From positions 203,136 to 267,135 of the forward strand of contig NZ_KE136481.1 in NCBI RefSeq assembly GCF_000407185.1: 64,000 nt of DNA, given 5' to 3'. Below the pieces are notes generated by a model. That model was not told the DNA's origin. It saw nothing but the letters and a program-made list of their open reading frames with translations, and searched no databases. Below, one piece after another: positions 11,649 to 56,317 of the stretch; the first letter of the stretch is position 1; the number at the start of each line of letters is the position of its first letter. The translations under genes were made by a program, and so were the position numbers. This DNA is from Enterococcus malodoratus ATCC 43197 (GTDB lineage Bacteria; Bacillota; Bacilli; Lactobacillales; Enterococcaceae).

Positions 11649-12497
11649 CTAAGATTTTCTAACTTTTGGAATATAAGTTGGGTAATCACCAATTAATGTG
11701 ACAGAAAAATTTTGTTTTTCTAGTTGATGCAGCACCTTCTGAAGTTTCCCATCCTCAGGTGTTTCTAAATCAATGATAAAGAAATATTCCCCTAATTTGG
11801 TTTTTTGTGTGCGCGACTCAATTTTGGTTAAGTTGATTTTTTCTGCTGCAAAAATTGCCAAACATTGATACAGTGCCCCCGGATGATCTGCCGCTAGATC
11901 AAATAGCAGAGTCGCTTTGTTCTGCCCTTGAGGTAAATCGCCTTTCAGTGGTTTAGCGCCTAACACCCAGAAGCGGGTTTCATTTTCACCAATGGATTGA
12001 ATGTTTTCTTGTACAATACTTAAACCAAATTGTGTTGCGGCATCTCTAGATCCAATCGCCGCGTATTTCATAGCTGGGTTGTCAGCAACCTTTTGTGCCC
12101 CTTGTGCAGTAGATCCTGTTTGTTCAATATCAACAGTTGGAAAATGATTCATAATGAATACTTGGGATTGTGCCAGAGCTTGCGGATGGCTGCAGATCAA
12201 TGCTGTCTCCTCCCATGAATCAGCATGGGTAGGATGAACCATCAATTGCTGCTGAATTGGCAACACGATTTCCGCTTGAATCGTCGGTAATGTTTGAAAG
12301 ATCAAATCCAAGGTAGGTAATACCGAGCCCTCAATAGTATTTTCGATTGGGACGACACAATAATCCAAAGTACCTTTTCTTTGTTCTTCAAGCAAAGCCG
12401 TCAAAGAGTCATATGGAAGCAGCTCTTCCTCTGAAAAGAAATTTGCTGCCGCGCTATAAGTAAACGATCCTCTAGGTCCTAAATAGCCAACTTCCAT
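11649..12497 (-). CDS. pheA: Prephenate dehydratase
   Basis: A 282-residue enzyme converting prephenate to phenylpyruvate in the Phe branch. The catalytic domain begins VGYLGPRGSFTYSAA and contains VVPIENTIEGSVLPTLD and IGSRDAATQFGLSI; TRFWVLG closes the PDT domain. A C-terminal ACT domain (about 200-275) carries DHPGALYQCLAIFAAEKINLTKIESRTQK, where ESRP-type Phe feedback binding occurs in the family. There is no chorismate mutase domain; that activity is not encoded nearby as a separate gene either. Its start overlaps the aroK stop by one base. Confidence 0.95.
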   Translation of the reverse strand: MEVGYLGPRGSFTYSAAANFFSEEELLPYDSLTALLEEQRKGTLDYCVVPIENTIEGSVLPTLDLIFQTLPTIQAEIVLPIQQQLMVHPTHADSWEETALICSHPQALAQSQVFIMNHFPTVDIEQTGSTAQGAQKVADNPAMKYAAIGSRDAATQFGLSIVQENIQSIGENETRFWVLGAKPLKGDLPQGQNKATLLFDLAADHPGALYQCLAIFAAEKINLTKIESRTQKTKLGEYFFIIDLETPEDGKLQKVLHQLEKQNFSVTLIGDYPTYIPKVRKS

Positions 12498-13000
12498 TAG
12501 GACGCGACCTGTTGAATGATTTCATTAACGATCTCTTCAGGCAATTTTTCTGAGGTATCTACGGTGATTTTAGCTAACTTTTCATAAAGTTTTTCTCTCG
12601 AAAAGAACAATCTCTTCAAATCCCCATCGTCATTTTTAATCGCTAAAGGACGAACATTTACTTTATCTTCACGAATACGTTGAACCAAGATATTCGCGTC
12701 AGCCTTTAAATAAACAACCAATTTATCAGATAAAACTTTTTGGTTTTCTTTTTGTAAGATCACGCCTCCGCCAGTCGCGATAACTGATTCCTCATTTAGC
12801 GCTTCTTTTAAGAGGTTGGTCTCATGCTCTCTAAAAGACGGTTCTCCATGTTCTTCAAAATAATCGCTGATCGGCTGACCAATGCGCTCAACCAAGACAT
12901 CATCCATATCCACCACACGAGTATTCAGTGTAGCGGCAAGTTCTTTACTGATCGTTGTTTTTCCGGCTCCCATAAAGCCAATTAAGACGATTGATTCCAT
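12497..13000 (-). CDS. aroK: Shikimate kinase
   Basis: A 167-residue P-loop kinase phosphorylating shikimate at the 3-OH. Walker A GFMGAGKTTISKELA is at the N-terminus. Shikimate-binding residues lie in VVDMDDVLVERIG, EPSFREHE and ATGGGVILQ; the lid contains RPLAI. The start was set at 13000 behind AAGGAG, which lies inside the longer frame. It sits between aroA and pheA in the aro operon. Confidence 0.95.
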   Translation of the reverse strand: MESIVLIGFMGAGKTTISKELAATLNTRVVDMDDVLVERIGQPISDYFEEHGEPSFREHETNLLKEALNEESVIATGGGVILQKENQKVLSDKLVVYLKADANILVQRIREDKVNVRPLAIKNDDGDLKRLFFSREKLYEKLAKITVDTSEKLPEEIVNEIIQQVAS

Positions 13001-13052
13001 TAGACATTCTCCTTCTTCATTTAAGGTACTCATTTTCAGGCCAGTTATTATT

Positions 13053-14324
13053 CTAGATTAATGAACTCAAGTCAGTGAAAAAATCTGGGTAAGAAATATT
13101 AATCGCTTCAGGATGACTTAACTCCACTGCTTCTTCTGTCAATAGAGCGGCAACCTGCAGCATCATTCCGATACGATGATCGCCATGACTGTCGACGGCA
13201 CCGCCATGCAAAGGTGTTGGACCATGAATAATCATCCCGTCATCGGTGGTTTCGATGTTCGCACCCAGCTTGTTTAGTTCTTTTGCTGTTGCATCGATCC
13301 GATTTGTTTCTTTCACCTTTAATTCTTGTGCATCACGAATGATTGTTGTTCCTTCTGCTTGTGTTGCTGCCAAAGCAATAACTGGCAGTTCATCAATCAA
13401 GCGTGGAATGATCTCTCCGCCAATCTCGCTTGCCTTTAATGGCGCATTCTTAATCAATAAGTCAGCCGCTTGGTTCTGCTGGTCAAATCCGACTTGTTGA
13501 ATATCTGCTCCCATGTCCTGCAAAACATCTAAAATACCAGTACGTGTTGGATTTACACCGACATGCTTCAAATGGAGATCACTTTCTGGCAATAAGCTGG
13601 CTGCAACTAGATAAAAGGCTGCAGAGGAAATATCTCCTGGCACGGTCACTTCTTGGCCAACCAGCTTTTGTCCCCCCGATACAGTGATTGTTTTGTCATC
13701 AACTGAAATCTCTCCGCCGAATTGCTTGATCATTTCTTCTGTATGATTGCGTGATTTTTCTTTTTCAATAATAGTGGTCAAACCTTCAGCTTGTAATGCT
13801 GCAAAAAGAATCGCAGATTTTACTTGGGCGCTGGCGATCGGCATTTCATAAGAGATAGCTGATAAGCTGGTTCCTGTAACTTCGATTGGCGGAAACTCGC
13901 TTCCGTCTTTGCCTTGAAGGTTTCCTCCCATCGTTCGTAAGGGTCCCATGACTCTTTCCATTGGACGGCGGTTCAATGAAGCATCTCCGGCAATTTTTGA
14001 ATCGAAAGGCTGCCCTGCCAATATTCCTAAAACCAAACGCATTGTTGTTCCGGAATTTCCGGCATCTAAGATATCTTTGGGCGCCTTCAGATTATTGAAT
14101 CCTGCACCTTCAACAATTATATCTTCCCCATCATCTTCAATCTTTACTCCTAAGGCCTTAAAAACAGCAACACTGCTTAAACAATCCTCAGCTCTTAAAA
14201 AATTGTGAATAGTTGTTCTTCCATGACTGATCGCACCAAACATAATGCTGCGATGAGAAATTGATTTATCTGCTGGTACGGTCAATGCACCCTTTAGCCC
14301 TGTTTTTGTTTTCAATAGTTCCAT
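13053..14324 (-). CDS. aroA: EPSP synthase (3-phosphoshikimate 1-carboxyvinyltransferase)
   Basis: A 423-residue enzyme joining shikimate-3-phosphate and PEP. Landmarks are [15 protein letters not shown] near residue 10, [19 protein letters not shown] near 80, [15 protein letters not shown] near 115 and [14 protein letters not shown] near 385. Gly and Ala positions in the NSGTTMR loop look wild type. The start at 14324 follows AAGGAG and lies 4 bases after the tyrA stop, whose last codons hold the Shine-Dalgarno. Confidence 0.95.
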
Positions 14325-14328
14325 TTGT

Positions 14329-15402
14329 TCAACTCCTTCTGCGACAACGAAAATCTGCTGCTTCAATTAGCAGTTGCCCTTTTTCCAAGTCTGCCTGATT
14401 TTTGAATGAAAGTTCGAAAACACCGAAAATATCTTCCCGCGTTTCTTGGATTTTCAAATTGATAATTGAGATATCAGCGTCACTCAAGATCGTCATAACC
14501 TTGGCGATCGCACCTGCGATATCTGGTATGTCGACGTAAAGATCATAGAATGCTGGAATAACTCCATGATCTTTTGCAGGTAAGTGATCGCGAGAGTGCT
14601 TTGCCTGACTGAAAAAATCATAGATGGCAGGTTGGTCTTCCTGCACTAGGCTTTCACGAACCTTGGACATTTCTTCCTGCCAACCTGTAATCAACTCTAG
14701 CAGGATAGTCCGATTGGTTAATAAAATATCCGTCCACATTTGCGGGTCTGATGAAGCAATCCGAGTAATATCACGGAACCCGCCGGCGGCCAATTGGCTC
14801 GCTCGCGGATGCTCCTCTGCCAACTTGTCACTCATTCTTACCAAACCTGAAGCCACGATGTGAGGCAAATGACTCAAAACACCTACGATTTCATCATGAG
14901 ATTCAGGTTCGATCACCACGAATTTTGCTCTCGTCGGCTCTAACAGTTCAATTAGAGGTTCCGCATCGGTTCCTTCTGGCGGTGTCAAAATGTAGTAAGC
15001 TTCTTCAAAAAGATTTGGATTACCTGCTTTGACACCAGATTTGTGCGATCCTGCCATCGGGTGACCGCCGATAAAGGTAAATGGCAATGTCTTTGCTAAT
15101 TTCATTACTTCATTCTTTGTGCTGCCTGTGTCAGTGACGATTACCGATTCTTTCAGCGGCAAACGCGCCAGCTCGTGCAAATAATGCAATGTGGATAGAA
15201 CGGGTACGGCTAAAATAATCACGTCCATCTCAGGTGCTCTTTCAATAGAAGCAATTTGATCAACTAGTCCAACTTCACTTGCAATTTCGCGGGTTTCTTC
15301 CGAATAATCCCAACCAAAAAGCTCGATTGTTGGATTTTTAATAGCCCGGCAAAGTGAAGCGCCAATTAAACCAAGTCCTAAGACGAACACTTTCTTTCTC
15401 AT
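14329..15402 (-). CDS. tyrA: Prephenate dehydrogenase with ACT domain
   Basis: A 357-residue NAD-dependent enzyme making 4-hydroxyphenylpyruvate for Tyr. The N-terminal Rossmann fold starts [17 protein letters not shown]. The [10 protein letters not shown] and [15 protein letters not shown] blocks carry catalytic and substrate residues, and [16 protein letters not shown] follows. A C-terminal ACT domain (about 290-350, [32 protein letters not shown]) suggests feedback control by Tyr. The stop codon region supplies the aroA ribosome binding site. Confidence 0.94.
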
Positions 15403-15418
15403 AGACGTACCCTCTCTC

Positions 15419-16579
15419 TTAAAAGTTTTTGATAGCTTCTCGGTATTCTGCTACCGCTTGTTGCAATTCATCGATCGTATCGGATGAGAATTTTTCTAAA
15501 ATTTCTTCTGCCAATACTGTAGCAACGACATGTTCTGCTACGACTGAAGCGGCTGGTACCGCTGTGCTGTCTGAGCGTTCAACACTCGCTTTGTAAGGTT
15601 CTTTTGTATCAATATCGACACTCATTAGTGGTTTGTATAAAGTAGGGATCGGCTTCATAACACCCCGCACGATAATTTGTTCGCCGTTGGTCATTCCGCC
15701 TTCGAAACCACCAAGATGGTTACTAGTACGGCTGTACCCTTCATCCCAAACGATTTCATCCATAACCTTCGAGCCTGGTTGTCTGGCTGCTTCAAATCCG
15801 ATACCGAATTCGACACCCTTAAAAGCATTGATGCTCATCATGATTTGTGCAATTTTTCCGTCCAGCTTGCGATCCCATTGAACGTAGCTGCCTAATCCTG
15901 CCGGTACATTGTCTGTTCGGACTTCTACAACGCCGCCAATTGTATCCCCTGCTTTTTTAGTTTGATCGATCAATTCTTTGACTGACTCTTCGACTGTTTC
16001 GTCTACCATATTGACTTCTGATACGGTTGCCTTTATCTGAATCTCTTTGACACTCAGTTCCTCTGGCACAGTCGCCTCAATCCCGCCAAGGATTGCCACA
16101 TGACTGGCGATTTCGATATCGACGGCCGCCAAAATTTGTTTGGCGATGGCACCCACTGCTACCCGCATTGTGGTTTCGCGAGCAGAAGAACGCTCTAGAA
16201 CATTGCGTAAATCGCTATGATGGTATTTCATTCCGCCGACTAAATCAGCATGACCGGGACGCGGCTTTGAAACGCGGCGTAATTTTTCATCTTTTTCTGC
16301 TACGGCTTCGACTGACATGACCTTCTGCCAATTTTTCCAATCGCGGTTTTCTACAATCATCGTGATTGGAGAACCTAAAGTTTTGCCATGACGGATGCCA
16401 GAGGTGATCCGGACTTGATCCTTTTCGATCTTCATTCGTCCACCGCGGCCGTACCCGCCTTGTCTGCGAGATAATTCGTGATTGATTGCTTCAACGGAAA
16501 GTGTTAGCCCTGCTGGAACACCTTCAATGATCGTAGTTAATTCTGGTCCATGAGATTCTCCAGCTGTTAAGTAACGCAT
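15419..16579 (-). CDS. aroC: Chorismate synthase
   Basis: A 386-residue FMN-dependent enzyme converting EPSP to chorismate. The family signatures are all present: [19 protein letters not shown] at the N-terminus, [61 protein letters not shown], and [17 protein letters not shown]-type residues near 300. Length is normal. It belongs to the aro operon, 18 bases after aroB. Confidence 0.96.
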
Positions 16580-16597
16580 AAACTACTTCCCTTCTAC

Positions 16598-17644
16598 TTA
16601 TAAAAAGTCTTTGATTTCTGTTAGTTTGATTTTTTGAATATAAGCTTTACCGATGTCTTCTAGTAAAATAATGTTTAAACTGTTTCCCCGCGCCTTTTTA
16701 TCATGGGTGATGGCGGAATAAAACTCTTCAGCGTTCCAAGGCTGATACTCGATTGGCAATTGATATTTTTGATTCATCGCCATGATCTTGTTGGTGATTC
16801 CAGCTGGTGAAAGGTTCTTTTCCTCCGCCGTCTGGGATATCTTCACCATTCCGATCGCAACTGCTTCACCATGGCTGATTTTTCCATAGCCGGCAGTGTT
16901 TTCGATCGCGTGGCCGATCGTATGACCAAAGTTCAACAATAAACGTGACCCATTATCGAACTCATCTTCTTCTACAACTGTTTTCTTCACTTGCAGAGCT
17001 TTGAGAATGATCGCTTCACTATGGTCTAAAAGATCTTGGATTCCTGTTAGTTTCTCAAGGTCTTGCCACAGTGAAGCATCACTGATTGCCCCACATTTGA
17101 TGATTTCCGCGATGCCTTCACGAACTCGAAGTTCGGGCAGCGTATTTAATGTCTCTGGATCGATCAATACACCATCAGGTTGAGCGAAAGTACCAATCAT
17201 ATTTTTAGCCATACTTGAATTCACTGCTGTCTTTCCGCCAATACTAGAATCGACTTGAGCTAGTAATGAGGTCGGTATCTGAACAAACGCGATACCTCGC
17301 ATATAAGTAGAAGCAACGAAGCTGGCCAAGTCGCCAACAACACCTCCGCCCAAAGCGATGACAGCGTCACTGCGAGTAAATTGCTGATCGGCTAGAAAAT
17401 CGTAAAGGTTATTCGCCATTTTCAATGATTTGCTGCTTTCACCTGCGGGTACTGTATAATGGCATACCTCGTAGTCGGCTAATTGCTGCTTGATTTTTTT
17501 CCCGTAAATCGGAAAAACATGTTCATCGCTGATAATCGCGATTTTTTTATTTTGCCAAAGTGAGGCGATCCATTCGCCCACAGAATCTAAGGCATGACGT
17601 TTTACAATGATCTCATACGTTTTTTCTGGTAAAACAATTTCCAT
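16598..17644 (-). CDS. aroB: 3-dehydroquinate synthase
   Basis: A 348-residue NAD- and metal-dependent enzyme closing DAHP to 3-dehydroquinate. The NAD-binding GGGVVGDLASFVASTYMRG and the substrate/metal residues in DSSIGGKTAVN, REGIAEIIKCG, LLNFGHTIGHAIE and HGEAVAIGM are intact. It is third in the operon, 16 bases after aroF. No type I or II dehydroquinase gene (aroD/aroQ) was found in this operon, so step 3 must be encoded elsewhere. Confidence 0.96.
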   Translation of the reverse strand: MEIVLPEKTYEIIVKRHALDSVGEWIASLWQNKKIAIISDEHVFPIYGKKIKQQLADYEVCHYTVPAGESSKSLKMANNLYDFLADQQFTRSDAVIALGGGVVGDLASFVASTYMRGIAFVQIPTSLLAQVDSSIGGKTAVNSSMAKNMIGTFAQPDGVLIDPETLNTLPELRVREGIAEIIKCGAISDASLWQDLEKLTGIQDLLDHSEAIILKALQVKKTVVEEDEFDNGSRLLLNFGHTIGHAIENTAGYGKISHGEAVAIGMVKISQTAEEKNLSPAGITNKIMAMNQKYQLPIEYQPWNAEEFYSAITHDKKARGNSLNIILLEDIGKAYIQKIKLTEIKDFL

Positions 17645-17660
17645 GAAACGTTCCCCCTAC

Positions 17661-18701
17661 TTAGATAAGTGAAGCTTCTTTTGTCAGTGCTTTAACCTTT
17701 TGCATCGCTTCAACCATGATCTCAACTTCACTCATCATTGTAAGGTAGTTTTTCTCATTCAATGATTGTTCACCATCAGACCATGCGTGCAATGGATCAG
17801 GATGGATCTCGACGATCATACCGTCCGCTCCACTAGCAACACCTGCGCGAGCCATTGGGGCAACTAGGTCCCAAACGCCTGTACCGTGACTTGGGTCAAC
17901 GATGATTGGGAAATGGCTCAATTTTTTGATTAATGGCACGGCACTTAAATCGAAGGTATTCCGTGTCGCTGTTTCGTAAGTACGAATCCCGCGTTCAATG
18001 AAAATGATTTTCGAATTGCCTTGAACAGCGATGTATTCAGCGGCATTCAACCATTCTTGGATCGTACCTGAGATTCCGCGTTTCAAGCCGATTGGTTTAC
18101 CTGTCTTACCAACTGCTTCTAATAAGCGAAAGTTTTGCATGTTTCGTGCACCGATTTGAATGATATCAGCGTATTCGCAGACAACATCGATATGAGCTTC
18201 ATCCATAACTTCTGTGATTACCTTTAGGCCATGAGCATCAGCGGCTTTGCGCATGATCTTCAAGCCTTCTTCACCTAACCCTTGGAAAGCGTATGGAGAA
18301 GTACGAGGTTTGTATGCTCCGCCGCGTAAGATTTTTGCTCCGCCGGCTTTTGCCATGCGTGCTGTTTCCATAATTTGCTCTTCGCCTTCGACTGAACAAG
18401 GACCAGCCATTGTTACAAAGCTGCCATCACCAATTTTTACGCCATCAACATCAACAACCGTATCTTGTGGATGGAATTCTCTTGACGTTAATTTGTAGGT
18501 GTTTGAAATCGCTACTGCTCGTTCAACAACACTGTATGCTTGAAACGGCACATTTTGAATAATCTTTGGATCTCCTAGCAGACCTAAAACTAAACGATCT
18601 TTTCCGTGATTGATTTGTACACCTAAACCCTCTTCTTTAATGCGAGATAAGATGGGTGATAATTCTGATTCCTGAATACCTTTTTTTATAATTAAGATCA
18701 T
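17661..18701 (-). CDS. aroF: DAHP synthase, type I-beta with N-terminal regulatory domain
   Basis: A 346-residue enzyme condensing PEP and erythrose-4-phosphate, the entry to the shikimate pathway. The first about 70 residues ([20 protein letters not shown] onwards) form the ferredoxin/ACT-like domain which in homologues such as the Thermotoga enzyme mediates Tyr or Phe inhibition. The barrel carries [55 protein letters not shown] and VDPSHGTG. The start was set at 18701 behind AAGGAAG. It lies 21 bases after aroE. Confidence 0.94.
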
Positions 18702-18722
18702 AGTAAAAACTTCCTTCACTTT

Positions 18723-19601
18723 TTATTTTTTAATTTCTTTTTCCAATAATGGTTGGATTTGTTCGACGGGCATTTCCTTGCCTGTCCATAAGTTGAATGC
18801 CGCAGCTCCTTGATAAAGCAGCATGTCTAAACCATTAACTGCTTTTGCTCCGGTTGCTTTCGCGGCTTTTAACAATTTGGTTTCACCTGGATGATAGATC
18901 ACATCGAAAACTGGCAAGTCTTTTCTTAGCAGTCCTTCATTTGGCAAAGGCATTTGATCTGTCTTTGGCGCCATTCCAATATTGGTGGCATTGATCAATA
19001 GACTGCTTGCTGCTAAAGAGTCGGCCAATTGTTTTTCATCTGTTAAATCGTGCAGTTGAATTTGACAGTTGGTTTCTTCAGCAATCATGGCCAGTTTCGG
19101 TTCGATTTTTTGATAAAAGTCATCTTTGATGTTAAAAACATCAATGGCTTCTACGCCGTCGATCGCCGCTTGTGTGATAATCGCGGTGGCGGCACCACCA
19201 GCGCCAAGAATCGTCATTCTCTTGCCGATGATCTCAATTCCGTTTTGCTTCAAACTTTCCATACAGCCGATGCCATCTGTGATATGCCCGATTAACTTAC
19301 CATCTTGGTTCACGATGGTATTGATTGCCCCGATCAAGCGAGCTGCCTGACTGAGTTCATCAACATATTTGACGGCTTCCATCTTGTGAGGCATCGATAA
19401 ATTGATTCCCAACATTTCAAGATCGCGAATGGCTTGAATACTTTCGCCAAGTCTTTCCGGCTGAACGTCAAAGCTTAAATAGACCGCATCAACCCCCGTT
19501 GCCTGGAACGCTGTTGTGTGCATCATTGGTGAAAAGCTGTGCCTTGCCGGCAGTGCAAACAAGCCAGCTAAACGCGTTCTTCCTGAAATTTCATTTTCCA
19601 T
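18723..19601 (-). CDS. aroE: Shikimate dehydrogenase
   Basis: A 292-residue NADPH-dependent reductase of 3-dehydroshikimate. Visible are the shikimate-binding LPARHSFSPMMHTTAF, NLSMPHKMEAVKYVDEL with the catalytic Lys, GAINTIVN, the GAGGAATAII nucleotide loop, INATNIGMAP and NGLDMLLYQGAAAFNLWTG. It is the first structural gene of the aro operon, behind AGGAGTGAGGAAAG-ATG and a leader of about 500 nt that carries a Tyr/Phe attenuator. Confidence 0.95.
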   Translation of the reverse strand: MENEISGRTRLAGLFALPARHSFSPMMHTTAFQATGVDAVYLSFDVQPERLGESIQAIRDLEMLGINLSMPHKMEAVKYVDELSQAARLIGAINTIVNQDGKLIGHITDGIGCMESLKQNGIEIIGKRMTILGAGGAATAIITQAAIDGVEAIDVFNIKDDFYQKIEPKLAMIAEETNCQIQLHDLTDEKQLADSLAASSLLINATNIGMAPKTDQMPLPNEGLLRKDLPVFDVIYHPGETKLLKAAKATGAKAVNGLDMLLYQGAAAFNLWTGKEMPVEQIQPLLEKEIKK

Positions 19602-19854: not shown

Positions 19855-19889
19855 AAAAAAGGCCCACTGTAGAAAATCTACAATGAGCC
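19855..19889 (-). terminator. Aro leader terminator T2
   Basis: RNA arms at 19877-19889 (segment 6) and 19861-19873 (segment 7) pair over 13 bp, including two G-U pairs, around a 3-nt loop. A T-run follows on the leftward strand at 19855-19860. It stands about 50 bases after T1, so the leader ends in two intrinsic terminators in series. Confidence 0.85.
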
Positions 19890-20023
19890 TAGTCTCCCAA
19901 AAAATACTAAAGAAAAAGCCACTATAGATTTTCATCTATGTGGCATTAAGTCGAACTTAATATCCTTAGCCATCATAGATACAAACTTGTTGTAGTCTGC
20001 ATCCATGAATCATGAACACAAAC
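19861..20023 (-). promoter_or_regulatory. Tyr/Phe leader-peptide attenuator of the aro operon
   Basis: Seven alternating RNA segments follow the leader peptide: S1 20011-20023, S2 19995-20007, S3 19969-19986, S4 19934-19944, S5 19918-19929, S6 19877-19889 and S7 19861-19873. S1:2 (13 bp, 3-nt loop) excludes S2:3 (13 bp, 8-nt loop), and G-U wobbles are what allow S2 to pair with both neighbours. S3:4 is an 11-bp antiterminator against T1 (4:5). S5:6 (10 bp, 19919-19928 with 19877-19886) would block T2 (6:7). S1 begins at the base after the leader stop codon, so a ribosome reaching the stop masks S1 (terminate), while one stalled on Tyr/Phe codons leaves S1 free (read through). No T-box motif is present. 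Pairings were read by eye, without energies. Confidence 0.8.
19909..19944 (-). terminator. Aro leader terminator T1
   Basis: Segment 4 (19934-19944, RNA gccacatagat) pairs with segment 5 (19918-19929, RNA atctatagtggc) around a GAAA loop with one bulge. UUUUUCUUU follows in the RNA. Segment 4 can alternatively pair with segment 3 (19969-19980) over 11 bp, also with one bulge, which would abolish T1. Confidence 0.85.
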
Positions 20024-20086
20024 CTATCTAAAATAGCTAAAGTAATAATTATTCAGTTGTGTGTGCGTACTCTTATTCTTATTCAT
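20024..20086 (-). CDS. Aro operon leader peptide (Tyr/Phe-rich)
   Basis: A 20-codon reading frame encoding MNKNKSTHTQLNNYYFSYFR and ending in TAG. Five of the last seven residues are Tyr or Phe (Y14, Y15, F16, Y18, F19). GGAG is placed 8 bases upstream of the ATG, and the predicted transcription start lies about 28 bases upstream, so it is the first translated frame of the aro mRNA. The stop codon directly adjoins attenuator segment S1. This is the hallmark of a ribosome-stalling sensor of charged Tyr- and Phe-tRNA, as in the pheA and trp leaders of enteric bacteria. The peptide itself probably has no other role. It was found by reading the leader strand; it is too short for ordinary gene calling. 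Confidence 0.85.
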   Translation of the reverse strand: MNKNKSTHTQLNNYYFSYFR

Positions 20087-20183: not shown

Positions 20184-20966
20184 TTACATTACTTCAGCTA
20201 CTGTCTCGCTCTCTTCAAATAGCAGGAATAAATCTGCTAACGTCATCCGTTCCTTCTCTTCCCCTCGGATGTCTTTGATGATTTCCCCTTTTTCCATAAC
20301 GATCACGCGATCGCCGTAATGCAGAGCGTCTTCCATTTTATGGGTGACCATCAAACAGGTCAGATTTTCTTCTTTGATTCGCTGATCAGTCAGCGTCATT
20401 AATTGCTTCGCTGTTTTCGGATCGAGTGCAGCTGTGTGTTCATCTAATAGTAATAAGTCGGGTTTCGTAATTGTCGCCATCAGCAAACTTAAAGCTTGTC
20501 TTTGTCCGCCGGAAAGAAATCCTGTTGGTGTATCGAGGTGGTTCTCCAGACCGTTGCCGATCAGTTTGCACAATTCACGATACATTTCTTTCTTTTGGTT
20601 TAATTGCCGTTGACGCAATCGCCGTTTTAGTCCGCGTTTTTCTGCTAATCCTAAATTTTCTGCTACCGTCAATCGTGGTGCCGTCCCCATTTTCGGATCC
20701 TGAAACACACGAGAGATCGATGTCGCACGCTGTTCTTCAGAAAGTTTAGTTAAATTTTTTCCCATTACTGAGACGGTTCCGCTGTCTAATTGCAGGTTGC
20801 CGGAAATACTATTAAACAGAGTGCTTTTCCCTGCGCCGTTTCCGCCAAGGACAGTGACGAACTCTCCGGGAGCGATCGTCAAATCGACATTGTTCAGGAT
20901 TCTGCGCTTATCATTGACGCCGTTGCTGATGGTCTTGCTCGCGTTTCTTACCTCTAATGCGTTCAT
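20184..20966 (-). CDS. trpZ: ABC transporter ATP-binding protein, tryptophan-type (TrpZ)
   Basis: A 260-residue ATPase. Walker A is VLGGNGAGKSTLFNSI near residue 37, the Q-loop lies in SRVFQDPKMGT, the signature is FLSGGQRQALSLLMA near 155, Walker B is DLLLLDEHTAALDPKTA, and the switch His is in VTHKMEDAL. It belongs to the COG1101 type paired with COG4120 permeases and COG2984 binding proteins, which in streptococci were named TrpXYZ from their Trp-responsive regulation. The leader peptide with Trp codons upstream supports the same substrate here. The start lies 4 bases after the permease stop. Confidence 0.85.
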   Translation of the reverse strand: MNALEVRNASKTISNGVNDKRRILNNVDLTIAPGEFVTVLGGNGAGKSTLFNSISGNLQLDSGTVSVMGKNLTKLSEEQRATSISRVFQDPKMGTAPRLTVAENLGLAEKRGLKRRLRQRQLNQKKEMYRELCKLIGNGLENHLDTPTGFLSGGQRQALSLLMATITKPDLLLLDEHTAALDPKTAKQLMTLTDQRIKEENLTCLMVTHKMEDALHYGDRVIVMEKGEIIKDIRGEEKERMTLADLFLLFEESETVAEVM

Positions 20967-20970
20967 ACGA

Positions 20971-21852
20971 TCACTCCTCCTTTTCCAATCCAGTTTTCAA
21001 ATTCAAGGCTTCTTTCAATCTTGGAATCATCAAGCACAATGCCAAAATGATTGAAGAGAAAATCTTCAAATAAGTTGTATCTAATCCAACTTTGATGATG
21101 ATTAAAATCAATAATTGATAAATGATACTACCTAAAACGATTGCGACAAGTCTTTCAACAAAAGTGACTTCACCATACAGGACCTCACCGATGATGATCG
21201 AAGCTAGACCGATAACGATTACACCGACCCCTTTACCGATATCCGCATAGCCGTCATTTTGTGCAATCAACGCGCCTGATAGAGCAATCACACCATTTGA
21301 TAAAGTCAAACCGATCACTTTCATGCGATCTGTGTTGATACCGATCGAACGCGCCATATTTTCATTATCGCCAGTAGCGATATATGCTTGACCAAAATCT
21401 GTAAAAAAGAAAAACAGCAGCAAGACCACGATGATCACGATTGCGATCAAGCCTAACAATACGATATCAAAATGATCCGGCAGATTTAGGTTCGTAAAGA
21501 AATCTTGAATCTTTGGCTGCTTCAACAAGGAAAGATTCGGTGTCTGCATAATGAAAAGCATCACCGAGTTCAATCCTGACATGACTAAAATTCCAGCTAA
21601 GATGACCGGGATTTTTCCTTTAGTGTAAAGCATGCCCGTAATAAACCCGGCACACATACCTGCGACGATTCCTAAAAGTGTCGCGAGAAACGGGGATACG
21701 CCGTTAGTGATCGCCGTTACACAGACTGCTCCGCCTAACGGAAATGAACCCTCTGTTGTCATATCCGGGAAATTTAGGATCCGGTACGTCATGAAAATAC
21801 CTAATCCTAAAATACCCCATAAAAATCCTTGTCCTATCGCTGAAATTACCAT
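20971..21852 (-). CDS. trpY: ABC transporter permease, tryptophan-type (TrpY)
   Basis: A 293-residue membrane protein with about eight hydrophobic segments, matching the branched-chain/BMP-type permease family (COG4120). It begins MVISAIGQGFLWGILGLGIFMTYRILNFPDMTTEGSFPLGGAV, a conserved N-terminal signature of this group, and contains DNENMARSIGINTDRMKVIGLTLSNG, the loop that contacts the ATPase. A single permease probably forms a homodimer. Substrate assignment follows the binding protein and the Trp-codon leader. Confidence 0.85.
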   Translation of the reverse strand: MVISAIGQGFLWGILGLGIFMTYRILNFPDMTTEGSFPLGGAVCVTAITNGVSPFLATLLGIVAGMCAGFITGMLYTKGKIPVILAGILVMSGLNSVMLFIMQTPNLSLLKQPKIQDFFTNLNLPDHFDIVLLGLIAIVIIVVLLLFFFFTDFGQAYIATGDNENMARSIGINTDRMKVIGLTLSNGVIALSGALIAQNDGYADIGKGVGVIVIGLASIIIGEVLYGEVTFVERLVAIVLGSIIYQLLILIIIKVGLDTTYLKIFSSIILALCLMIPRLKEALNLKTGLEKEE

Positions 21853-21856
21853 TTGT

Positions 21857-22867
21857 CTACTCCCCTTTAACTACTTCTGCTTTTTCTTTGATTTTATCTG
21901 GAATCGTAATTCCTAATTCTTTGGCTTTTTCTTCATTGATAATCATATCGCCATAATCGATTACATTGACTGGTGTGTCTGCTGGTTTTGATTTACCGCT
22001 TAATACATTAGCAGCCATTTTTCCAGATTCAACACCTAGCTCAAATTGATTTTGTCCCACAGTTGCGATTCCGCCTTCTTTCACCATGTTGTCCACCGAA
22101 ACAAACACAGGCTTCTTCGCTTTGTCTGACTCACTGATCATTGTTTGGAAGGCACTGGCGATCGTGTTGTCTTGCGGGATGTATAAGTAGTCTGTTTCTT
22201 GACAAGCTTGCTGTGTGATCTGAGCGATATCATTACTTGAACTGATCGCATATTTCTTTACAGTCAAGCCCTCTTTGGTCGCACGTTTTTCGGCCCGGTC
22301 AATTTGTGATTTAGAGTTTTCTTCTGAAGATGAGTAGATCATTCCAACGGTTTTTGCATCAGGGAACATTTCTTTCGCCATATCTAATTGCTGATCAACC
22401 GGCGTTAAATTATTTACACCTGTGATATTTCCACCGGGATGCTTCAAATCTTTGACTAGACCCGCTCCGATCGGATCGCTGATCGCTGACATGATGATCG
22501 GCTTGTCGCTAGTCGCGTTGGCCAATGCTTTGGCTGCGGGAGTTGCAACACCAATTAAGACATCCGAGTTTTTTTCTAACAGTTGTTGGCTCATGCTGTT
22601 CAATTTACTTTGATCACCTTGACCGTTTAAAAATTCAATTTTGATATTCTTGCCGTCTTCATAGCCCTCATCTTTTAATCCTTTGATCACACCGTCTTTG
22701 ATTTGATCTAACGATGGGTGACTGATGAATTGCAAGATACCGACAGTCTTCATTTCTTCCTTATCTGCTGTAGCGTCTGTTTGACGCGAACCCATTTGAT
22801 AAGCGAATACCCCGATTAGTACAACTGCTAACGCGATGATTGATCCAATAATTCCTTTATTTTTCAT
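21857..22867 (-). CDS. trpX: ABC transporter substrate-binding protein, tryptophan-type (TrpX)
   Basis: A 336-residue binding protein of the COG2984 family. It has an N-terminal hydrophobic segment (IGSIIALAVVLIGVFAYQM, about 5-23), then TVGILQFISHPSLDQIKDGVIKGL, GVATPAAKALANATSDKPIIMSAISDPIGAGLV and VGMIYSSSEENS. No lipobox Cys follows the hydrophobic stretch, so it seems to be held by an uncleaved anchor rather than a lipid. Family members bind amino-acid-like ligands, and the Trp codons in the leader point to tryptophan or a precursor. It is the first gene of the operon, behind GGAGG. Confidence 0.85.
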   Translation of the reverse strand: MKNKGIIGSIIALAVVLIGVFAYQMGSRQTDATADKEEMKTVGILQFISHPSLDQIKDGVIKGLKDEGYEDGKNIKIEFLNGQGDQSKLNSMSQQLLEKNSDVLIGVATPAAKALANATSDKPIIMSAISDPIGAGLVKDLKHPGGNITGVNNLTPVDQQLDMAKEMFPDAKTVGMIYSSSEENSKSQIDRAEKRATKEGLTVKKYAISSSNDIAQITQQACQETDYLYIPQDNTIASAFQTMISESDKAKKPVFVSVDNMVKEGGIATVGQNQFELGVESGKMAANVLSGKSKPADTPVNVIDYGDMIINEEKAKELGITIPDKIKEKAEVVKGE

Positions 22868-22966
22868 GATTAATTCCTCCGGTTTTTGTTTTTTTGATGG
22901 TACTGGTCTTGAAGGCTGCTAACTCACTAGTAGTTTACTAGCTGTAGCACGATTAGAAAAACTGGC

Positions 22967-23005
22967 AAAAAAAGACAACTACCCCAAATTTAACGGTAGT
23001 TGTCT
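22967..23005 (-). terminator. Trp transporter leader terminator T2
   Basis: Segment 6 (22995-23005) and segment 7 (22973-22983) are exact 11-bp complements (agacaactacc type) with an 11-nt loop. A T-run follows on the leftward strand. It lies between T1 and the trpX start. Confidence 0.88.
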
Positions 23006-23132
23006 TAGAAAAAACAAAAACCGCATAGATATAGTCTCTATGCGGGAATAAGCATCAAAAAATATCCAGCATAGATACAAAATTTAGAAGTTGCCTAAAC
23101 GTTGTATCTATGAGTGAATTCATAAATACAAC
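22973..23132 (-). promoter_or_regulatory. Trp leader-peptide attenuator of the TrpXYZ transporter
   Basis: The segment order is the same as before aroE: S1 23120-23132, S2 23101-23113, S3 23066-23080, S4 23034-23045, S5 23021-23029, S6 22995-23005 and S7 22973-22983. S1:2 is a 13-bp hairpin. S2:3 is 11 perfect bp and excludes it. S3:4 (tctatgctgg with ccgcataga, one bulged T) is an antiterminator against T1 (4:5). T2 is 6:7. A weaker S5:6 pairing (23013-23023 with 22994-23004; 4 and 5 bp around a 2x2 internal loop) could open T2. S1 starts at the base after the leader stop. Stalling at the Trp codons should favour read-through and completed translation should favour termination. An 8-bp stem (23168-23175 with 23132-23139) also encloses both Trp codons. 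Confidence 0.8.
23009..23045 (-). terminator. Trp transporter leader terminator T1
   Basis: RNA ccgcataga (23037-23045) pairs with tctatgcgg (23021-23029) over 9 bp with a 7-nt loop, then UUUUUGUUUUUU. The upstream arm can instead pair with segment 3, which ends ...tctatgctgg. Confidence 0.88.
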
Positions 23133-23189
23133 TTATCTACGCCAGTTTTGCCAGCTATTCAATTGATTAGATAAGTTTGCGTGTCTCAT
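23133..23189 (-). CDS. Trp transporter leader peptide (two Trp codons)
   Basis: An 18-codon frame encoding MRHANLSNQLNSWQNWRR and ending in TAA. The two TGG codons are at 23151-23153 and 23142-23144. AAGGAG is 8 bases upstream of ATG, and the predicted transcript start is about 30 bases upstream. Two Trp in 18 residues is far above background, and the stop codon abuts the first strand of the attenuator, as in enteric trpL. It is read as a sensor of charged Trp-tRNA. No T-box motif occurs in this leader. It is too short for ordinary gene calling. Confidence 0.85.
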   Translation of the reverse strand: MRHANLSNQLNSWQNWRR

Positions 23190-23225
23190 GAATGTCACTC
23201 CTTTTTCTTTTTTAAGGTTGAGGTT

Positions 23226-23254
23226 AGTTTAGCCGAAAAAAAATCGACTGTCAA
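23226..23254 (-). promoter_or_regulatory. Promoter of the trpXYZ operon
   Basis: On the leftward strand TTGACA (23249-23254) and TAAACT (23226-23231) are separated by 17 bases. The expected start is near 23219. Confidence 0.82.
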
Positions 23255-23301
23255 CTCTTTTTATTAAAAAAAACTCATTTATTTTATTCGTACTCTCATT
23301 T

Positions 23302-56069: not shown

Positions 56070-56282
56070 AAAAAAAATAAAAACTACCACTGCAGTCAAG
56101 GACGAAAACTCGCGGTACCACCTTGATTGCAATGATAGTTTGATCATTACCTCTTCAGCTCGTTAACGCTGAGCAGCGTTGATTTTTCAACCAAAAATGT
56201 CGGGAGCAATTTATTATCCGCAACGTGCAGCTTTCAGCAACCGTGCACTTTCTGTAGATGCGTGAAGAATAAACCATATCCT
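56070..56282 (-). promoter_or_regulatory. T-box leader of alaS
   Basis: The leader RNA carries the T-box motif aaggtggtaccgcgagtttt (56105-56124, leftward). The terminator stem of 19 bp with G-U pairs joins 56121-56139 and 56083-56101 and runs into U-rich sequence. Uncharged tRNA-Ala pairing with the UGG-containing bulge should stabilise the antiterminator. A GCT triplet at 56205-56207 is a candidate specifier, but Stem I was not folded. The RNA would start near 56282. Confidence 0.9.
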
Positions 56283-56288
56283 TTTAAG

Positions 56289-56317
56289 AGTATAGAAAAA
56301 AGTTTGTCAAAAGTCAA
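56289..56317 (-). promoter_or_regulatory. Promoter of alaS
   Basis: TTGACT (56312-56317) and TATACT (56289-56294), separated by 17 bases, on the leftward strand, directly ahead of the T-box leader. Confidence 0.75.

Follow-up and report, generated by a model that had tools for sequence, protein, structure and literature searches.

A Trp-coded leader peptide and tandem terminators upstream of trpX in Enterococcus malodoratus point to attenuation by the RF04312 trpB motif

We propose, from sequence analysis, that the trpX leader of Enterococcus malodoratus is a ribosome-mediated transcription attenuator that would sense charged Trp-tRNA, a reading to which we assign a probability of roughly 0.92. 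Two properties by which an attenuator can be recognized, namely a translatable short ORF with sensor codons for the regulated amino acid, and an antiterminator that is mutually exclusive with an intrinsic terminator, are both present in this leader, which lies in the 64,000-nucleotide stretch of DNA that was analyzed here (hereafter, the window). The analysis adds to a preliminary description of the locus an existing Rfam family (RF04312), a leader of like design before the aroE operon, and a second terminator. The promoter and leader ORF lie upstream of the trpX start at 22867 (-), with the 18-codon ORF between promoter and gene:

23226..23254 (-), sigma-70-type promoter, TTGACA-17-TAAACT (-35 and -10 spaced by 17 nt)
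23198..23203 (-), Shine-Dalgarno sequence AAGGAG, 8 nt 5' of the leader ATG
23133..23189 (-), leader ORF MRHANLSNQLNSWQNWRR, followed by a stop; 18 codons, kept in relatives
23142..23153 (-), sensor codons Trp13 (23153-23151) and Trp16 (23144-23142), with Gln14 and Asn15 between them
23009..23114 (-), Rfam match to the RF04312 trpB motif, 64.5 bits (cut-off 59)

This arrangement bears out the preliminary description, which had claimed a peptide with two Trp codons near its end, an AAGGAG site at 8 bases, a TTGACA-17-TAAACT promoter, and a stop codon adjoining the first attenuator strand; the stop codon TAA occupies 23135-23133 (-), and strand A, GTTGTATTTATG, begins at the very next base. Taken by itself, the promoter match does not exceed chance expectation in this region (5 found, against 7.0 ± 2.8 in shuffles), while a promoter matching at least 10 of 12 positions is found upstream of 87 of the 142 Trp leaders called at RF04312 matches (see below), vs 14 of 426 mononucleotide shuffles. 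By score (at least 59 bits), the window leader belongs to RF04312, and, since the Rfam match begins 3' of the leader stop codon, the leader peptide falls outside the RF04312 model. The leader RNA at 23140-23009 folds far better than its shuffles (z -5.7), and can be divided into strands in the order P, A, B and C (together P1), C3, D and E (terminator 1), and F and G (terminator 2):

23137..23145 (-), strand P, CTGGCGTAG, spanning the final codons as far as the stop; a potential pairing partner of the 3' end of strand C
23121..23132 (-), strand A, which forms 12 bp with strand B
23095..23112 (-), strand B, the 5' side of P1 (the Rfam hairpin)
23070..23087 (-), strand C, the 3' side of P1; its end and the next base (TCTATGC) pair with D as the antiterminator
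23074-23066 (-), the 3' end of strand C (C3), CTATGCTGG, the pairing partner of P
23021..23045 (-), terminator 1 (strands D and E), then a U tract
22972..23006 (-), terminator 2 (strands F and G), then a U tract; strand E together with the first U tract is a possible partner of its 5' arm

In the mechanism that we propose, transcription would start about 30 bases upstream of the leader ORF. When Trp is short, a ribosome would stall at Trp13 or Trp16, covering P and leaving A free, such that A:B would form and release C, and the C:D antiterminator would block terminator 1 (D:E); the free E, together with its U tract, would then pair with F and so hinder terminator 2 (F:G) too, and with both terminators avoided, trpXYZ would be transcribed in what we take to be the response to Trp. 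When Trp is plentiful, a ribosome at the stop codon would cover A, leading to B:C, D:E, and F:G and thus to the end of transcription, and if there is no translation, P could hold C, with termination again favored. We infer this order of folding in the cell, and the model relies on folding during transcription because the terminators form stronger duplexes than the antiterminators do (in the window, -12.3 kcal/mol for E and its U tract with F, vs -18.9 kcal/mol for F:G). The sequence itself shows the ORF, the two terminators, conservation of the complementarity, the order of the genes, and the pocket residue of the binding protein.

To gauge the complementarity, native strand pairs were compared with cross-genome partners in 91 leaders, which derive from 145 Trp leaders (142 called and three identified by eye) that reduce to 92 non-redundant sequences, one of which was left out as it has no terminator 1. 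Native partners were stronger both for the pairs that would accompany termination (B:C, D:E, F:G, and P:C3) and for those that would accompany read-through (A:B, C+C3:D, and E:F), for example in 78/91 leaders for A:B, 72/91 for C:D, and 66/91 for P:C3, while none of nine control strand combinations was stronger natively, and A:D and P:D were weaker. The same test shows nothing for A:F, which we had considered as an antiterminator for terminator 2 and rejected. In an alignment of 44 sequences, 92.8% of cells are paired for A:B and C:D, and both sides change at 3 of 19 pairs (at only 2 of 12 for A:B); P:C is paired in 90.4%, but its covariation is not above that of shuffles. In the window, P:C3 is weak, at -2.0 kcal/mol with short segments and -7.8 kcal/mol with longer ones. 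The pairing of P may explain the frequent Gln-Ser/Asn codons after the Trp codon.

We then folded the leaders with a ribosome mask, in which all sequence up to the leading edge of the ribosome is left out of the fold. Across the 91 leaders, the mean P(C:D) was 0.74 with the ribosome at the first sensor Trp, 0.68 at the last, 0.32 at the stop codon, and 0.27 with no ribosome, and in silico, a stall at the first Trp gave a P(C:D) higher by >0.1 than the stop in 81/91 leaders, with the opposite in 2/91. The corresponding values for the window change modestly (0.87, 0.80, 0.67, and 0.60, respectively), but its P(B:C) shifts clearly, from 0.25 when stalled to 0.85 at the stop. The modeled fold would thus favor read-through when the ribosome is stalled at a sensor codon.

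The second terminator is the part of this model for which a different reading retains the most weight. Terminator 2 is predicted below -12 kcal/mol in 66/91 leaders, vs 15/273 shuffles, and below -8 kcal/mol in 73/91. It could be a constitutive back-up only, with E:F a by-product of similar sequences and the switch residing in terminator 1 alone, as would fit with the 18/91 leaders that lack a terminator 2 below -8 kcal/mol, and with F:G being stronger than E:F. However, native E:F pairs are stronger than cross pairs in 56/73 leaders (p = 1.8e-8), and pairing of the 5' arm of terminator 2 (F) with upstream sequence averages 0.66 with E free vs 0.26 with terminator 1 formed, being higher by >0.1 with E free in 70/73 leaders (in the window, 0.83 vs 0.46). 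In addition, a constitutive terminator would block expression under starvation as well. We therefore regard a back-up role as possible, yet less probable than a second terminator that responds to the stalled ribosome.

Taking this model to the relatives of E. malodoratus, RF04312 is found at E ≤0.001 in 104/105 genomes of the window's family and in 211/395 genomes of its order, compared to 5/398 genomes in a sample of the phylum (own genome included). We examined 228 RF04312 loci, comprising 55 returned by searches, 64 matches from outside the family that were new as loci among the matches listed, and family matches (35 second or third, 20 weak first, and 54 first matches), such that all 139 family matches are covered. 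Leader peptides were called blind to Trp, from a Shine-Dalgarno sequence, a length of 8-40 codons, and a stop at -45 to +5 of the motif start, and a Trp leader was one with Trp within the last 12 codons. A Trp leader lies directly upstream of the motif at 196/228 matches (142 of the first 174 and all 54 further ones), with a Tyr/Phe-rich leader at 17 and neither type at 15. Dinucleotide shuffles of the first 174 loci (17,400 in total) gave a Trp leader in 1.8% and a Tyr/Phe-rich one in 0.8% of cases, and control places in 55 of the loci gave 3.5% and 1.0%, respectively. Among the 15 misses, four have a leader by eye that was lost to the Shine-Dalgarno rule of the caller (L097, L107, and L119 for Trp, and L131 for Tyr/Phe), L144 is the antisense of L007, and the other ten are below the Rfam cut-off and resemble chance matches.

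Downstream of the 142 Trp leaders is a TrpX-type binding protein in 130 cases and a trpB-like gene in eight (by Pfam PALP in the case of L006). There are also less usual neighbors. At L087 the Trp leader precedes an oligopeptide-binding protein (SBP_bac_5), a hint that cells short of Trp may respond by taking up peptides, and at L035 it is upstream of a reverse-transcriptase-like ORF, while at L038 and L057 the leader and terminator are followed by a stretch with no same-strand ORF of 80 codons. At L003, from another class of the phylum, a Phe-rich leader (MNYINNFNLKIQIFFNNHFR, then a stop) with the same strand order stands before a sodium-dependent (SNF) transporter, with an RF04312 match of 52.1 bits, which is below the cut-off.

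The comparison of leaders upstream of transporter genes in relatives, as called for in the preliminary description, was also run from the side of the gene, using the best 80 of at least 578 named TrpX loci (some of these genomes are shared with the RF04312 set), mainly from Enterococcus, Vagococcus, Tetragenococcus, and lactobacilli. A second caller, which required a hairpin downstream of a Trp or Tyr/Phe-rich peptide, placed a Trp leader at 72/80 loci; the script returned 73, one of which, in Streptococcus acidominimus, is spurious, and the locus contains by eye a T-box-like core, which scores below all Rfam cut-offs. No leader was found at 7/80 (two Floricoccus, two Bifidobacterium, Lactococcus raffinolactis, Levilactobacillus koreensis, and one Tetragenococcus halophilus). 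The leader peptide of E. raffinosus DSM 5633 is identical to that of the window. In Bifidobacterium mongoliense (L262), TrpX is 55% identical and is preceded by a peptide ending WRCWRRYL, with GC-richer strands that are complementary by eye and a first terminator-like hairpin without a clear U tract, which suggests a possible horizontal transfer with the pairing kept.

A leader of the same design but with other sensor codons is present in the window itself, upstream of the aroE operon:

20024..20086 (-), second leader ORF, MNKNKSTHTQLNNYYFSYFR, followed by a stop (Tyr/Phe sensor)
19869..20040 (-), match to RF02863 'sRNA 2410', 73.1 bits (cut-off 61)
18723..19601 (-), aroE, first gene of the shikimate/Tyr/Phe operon (11649-19601)

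By score (at least 61 bits) the aroE leader is a member of RF02863, and the 5' end of the match overlaps the leader ORF; terminator-like hairpins are seen by eye at 19918-19944 and 19860-19890 (-). The operon runs aroE, DAHP synthase, aroB, aroC, prephenate dehydrogenase, aroA, a shikimate kinase homologue, and prephenate dehydratase, where the kinase, with no NCBIfam hit at the strict limit, was assigned by its likeness to L211. RF02863 is present in 101/105 genomes of the window's family, and in a sample of 50 loci (30 top matches and 20 chosen by hand), a leader was called at 48, all of them Tyr/Phe-rich and mostly ending YFSYFR. Downstream at these 50 loci are a second TrpX-like binding protein (40 loci), aroE (four), DAHP synthase (three), an AroB-like protein (two), and shikimate kinase (one). 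We note that a third RF02863 leader of the E. malodoratus genome (L206 590-1327, on C1) stands before a lone AroB-like protein of 246 aa, which scores 62.9 bits where the aroB cut-off is 305; proteins like it occur at L217 and, by our reading, at L131, L139, and L143. Trp-type P strands pair better with their own C3 than with Tyr/Phe-type C3 in 79/91 leaders, as do Tyr/Phe-type P strands with their own C3 rather than Trp-type C3 in 40/42; within the Tyr/Phe set, the difference between native and cross P:C3 is not significant (27/42).

The exchange of sensor codons can be compared with the likely cargo of the transporters behind the leaders, which in the window are encoded as follows:

21857..22867 (-), trpX, substrate-binding protein, pocket residue Gln274
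20971..21852 (-), permease (PF02653)
20184..20966 (-), ATPase (PF00005)

The window TrpX scores 465.3 bits against the NCBIfam TrpX equivalog NF041285 (cut-off 390), and has Gln274 at the position of Gln-284 in the Trp pocket of SP1069, the residue expected of a TrpXYZ pocket, both of which support the preliminary claim that tryptophan is the probable cargo. Crystal structures have Gln-284 in the Trp-binding SP1069, vs Tyr in Tyr- and Phe-binding relatives (PMC6816091). This column holds Gln in 132 of 133 binding proteins behind Trp leaders (three of these leaders having been identified by eye), the remaining one being a gap, and Tyr in 40 of 40 behind Tyr/Phe leaders. At the Glu-263 column, Val is found in 111/133 and Ser in 35/40, respectively, and the Tyr-specific Glu-263 is absent from both of these sets, so that Phe and Tyr cargo are indistinguishable by pocket residues. 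In a tree of 86 proteins (the window TrpX, 45 of the 133 Trp-leader proteins, and all 40 Tyr/Phe-leader proteins), the leader type switches once, with support of 100/100, and the E. malodoratus genome encodes two PF04392 binding proteins, one downstream of a Trp leader and the other of a Tyr/Phe leader. The leader codons thus agree with the cargo pocket of the binding protein.

These data bear on how RF04312 has been viewed to date. In 2024, the trpB motif was described as a strong riboswitch candidate with an unknown ligand and >900 members across Firmicutes and Fusobacteria, the most frequent downstream gene being an uncharacterized amino-acid-like ABC transporter, by authors who did not rule out a classic attenuator (PMC11109978). 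The RF04312 model shares with the window leader, which matches it above the cut-off, the P1 hairpin and a terminator, but omits the leader peptide, strands P and A, and terminator 2. As a riboswitch, P1 would bind a small ligand such as Trp and control terminator 1, and the ORF would be incidental. We consider this very unlikely, since a Trp leader is present at all 77 loci above the Rfam cut-off among the matches listed (65/65 and 12/12), paralogues of the same design change from Trp to Tyr/Phe codons along with the regulated genes and the pocket residue, and strand pairing accounts for much of the conserved sequence. Still less credible is a protein factor that binds the leader RNA and sets antitermination, with the peptide merely helping, as the sensor codons track the pathway, which such a factor would not need. 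That the ORF encodes a functional small protein, for which its good ribosome-binding site might speak, is hardly tenable given an N-terminal half that varies in length and sequence, with mostly sensor codons and paired bases kept.

The RF04312 and RF02863 RNAs are therefore best read as probable ribosome-mediated attenuators, and not as a riboswitch and an sRNA, respectively. RF02863 was filed as an sRNA, 'sRNA 2410', and differs from the window leader in its Tyr/Phe rather than Trp sensor codons, but has the same strand order, a leader ending YFSYFR and a stop, and tandem hairpins; Northern blots of sRNA_2410 in Enterococcus faecium gave two transcripts (PMC5593968), which by our own reading would fit with two terminators. 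In the open-license literature, we found no paper that reads either the trpB motif or sRNA 2410 as a leader-peptide attenuator. This reading offers a mechanism for an orphan riboswitch candidate with >900 reported members, would make a ligand search unnecessary, and would reclassify an enterococcal 'sRNA'. We further lean, with some reserve, toward a broader view in which RF04312 and RF02863 belong to a single superfamily of codon-programmed attenuators, which serves many Lactobacillales as their main sensor of aromatic amino acids, with eight alternating strands, one stalled ribosome flipping two successive terminators, and Trp and Tyr/Phe sensor codons exchanged as the scaffold moved to new genes. 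With sensor codons swapped on one scaffold, leader codons would predict the cargo of a transporter family with two members in this genome.

The preliminary description had also claimed that the locus has no T-box motif and that a leader-peptide sensor takes its place. Consistent with the first point, no T-box is found in the window at the Rfam cut-off, and none in 22860-23300 at E ≤1. The second is supported by a peptide and alternative helices that are conserved across Lactobacillales, and further by the occurrence of Tyr/Phe-coded paralogues upstream of Tyr/Phe genes and by the Trp-type residue in the TrpX pocket, all of which point to a leader-peptide sensor. The genome has 24 T-box matches at E ≤0.001 (16 above the cut-off), none of them at trpX, meaning that leader peptides are used within a T-box-rich genome. 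A weak T-box match in the window, at 56095-56296 (-) (72 bits, cut-off 93), was rejected as a trpX regulator as it directly precedes a gene read as alaS. A simple T-box pattern found none in the 80 named trpX loci, though a T-box-like core visible by eye in L313 escaped it. The trpX of Streptococcus suis has an experimentally tested T-box, which shares with the window leader the transporter, the signal (Trp-tRNA charging), and transcription termination, but which reads the tRNA directly, whereas none was found at the window trpX (PMC9382623).

The enteric trp and pheA leaders are built on a short sensor-codon peptide, where ribosome stalling chooses between antiterminator and terminator using four strands and one terminator. 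In contrast, the stall in the window leader would act one step earlier, with A:B freeing C for D, and there are two terminators; a permissive Rfam scan of 22860-23300 returned no enteric leader family. The histidine leader peptides of bacilli are regular leader peptides that likewise replace T-boxes in Firmicutes, but for another amino acid and other genes; Naville and Gautheret (2010) wrote that, apart from ermC, no earlier such system was known to them from outside Proteobacteria and Actinobacteria (PMC2965389). With the leaders described here, classical leader-peptide attenuation, which is reported to be rare in Firmicutes, would extend to a set of genes for aromatic amino acids. As a minor observation, a complement, TTTTGCCAG, is found 3' of terminator 2 in the window, where TTTTGCCAGTTTTT, at 22957-22970 (-), complements the part of the leader that holds the Trp codons.
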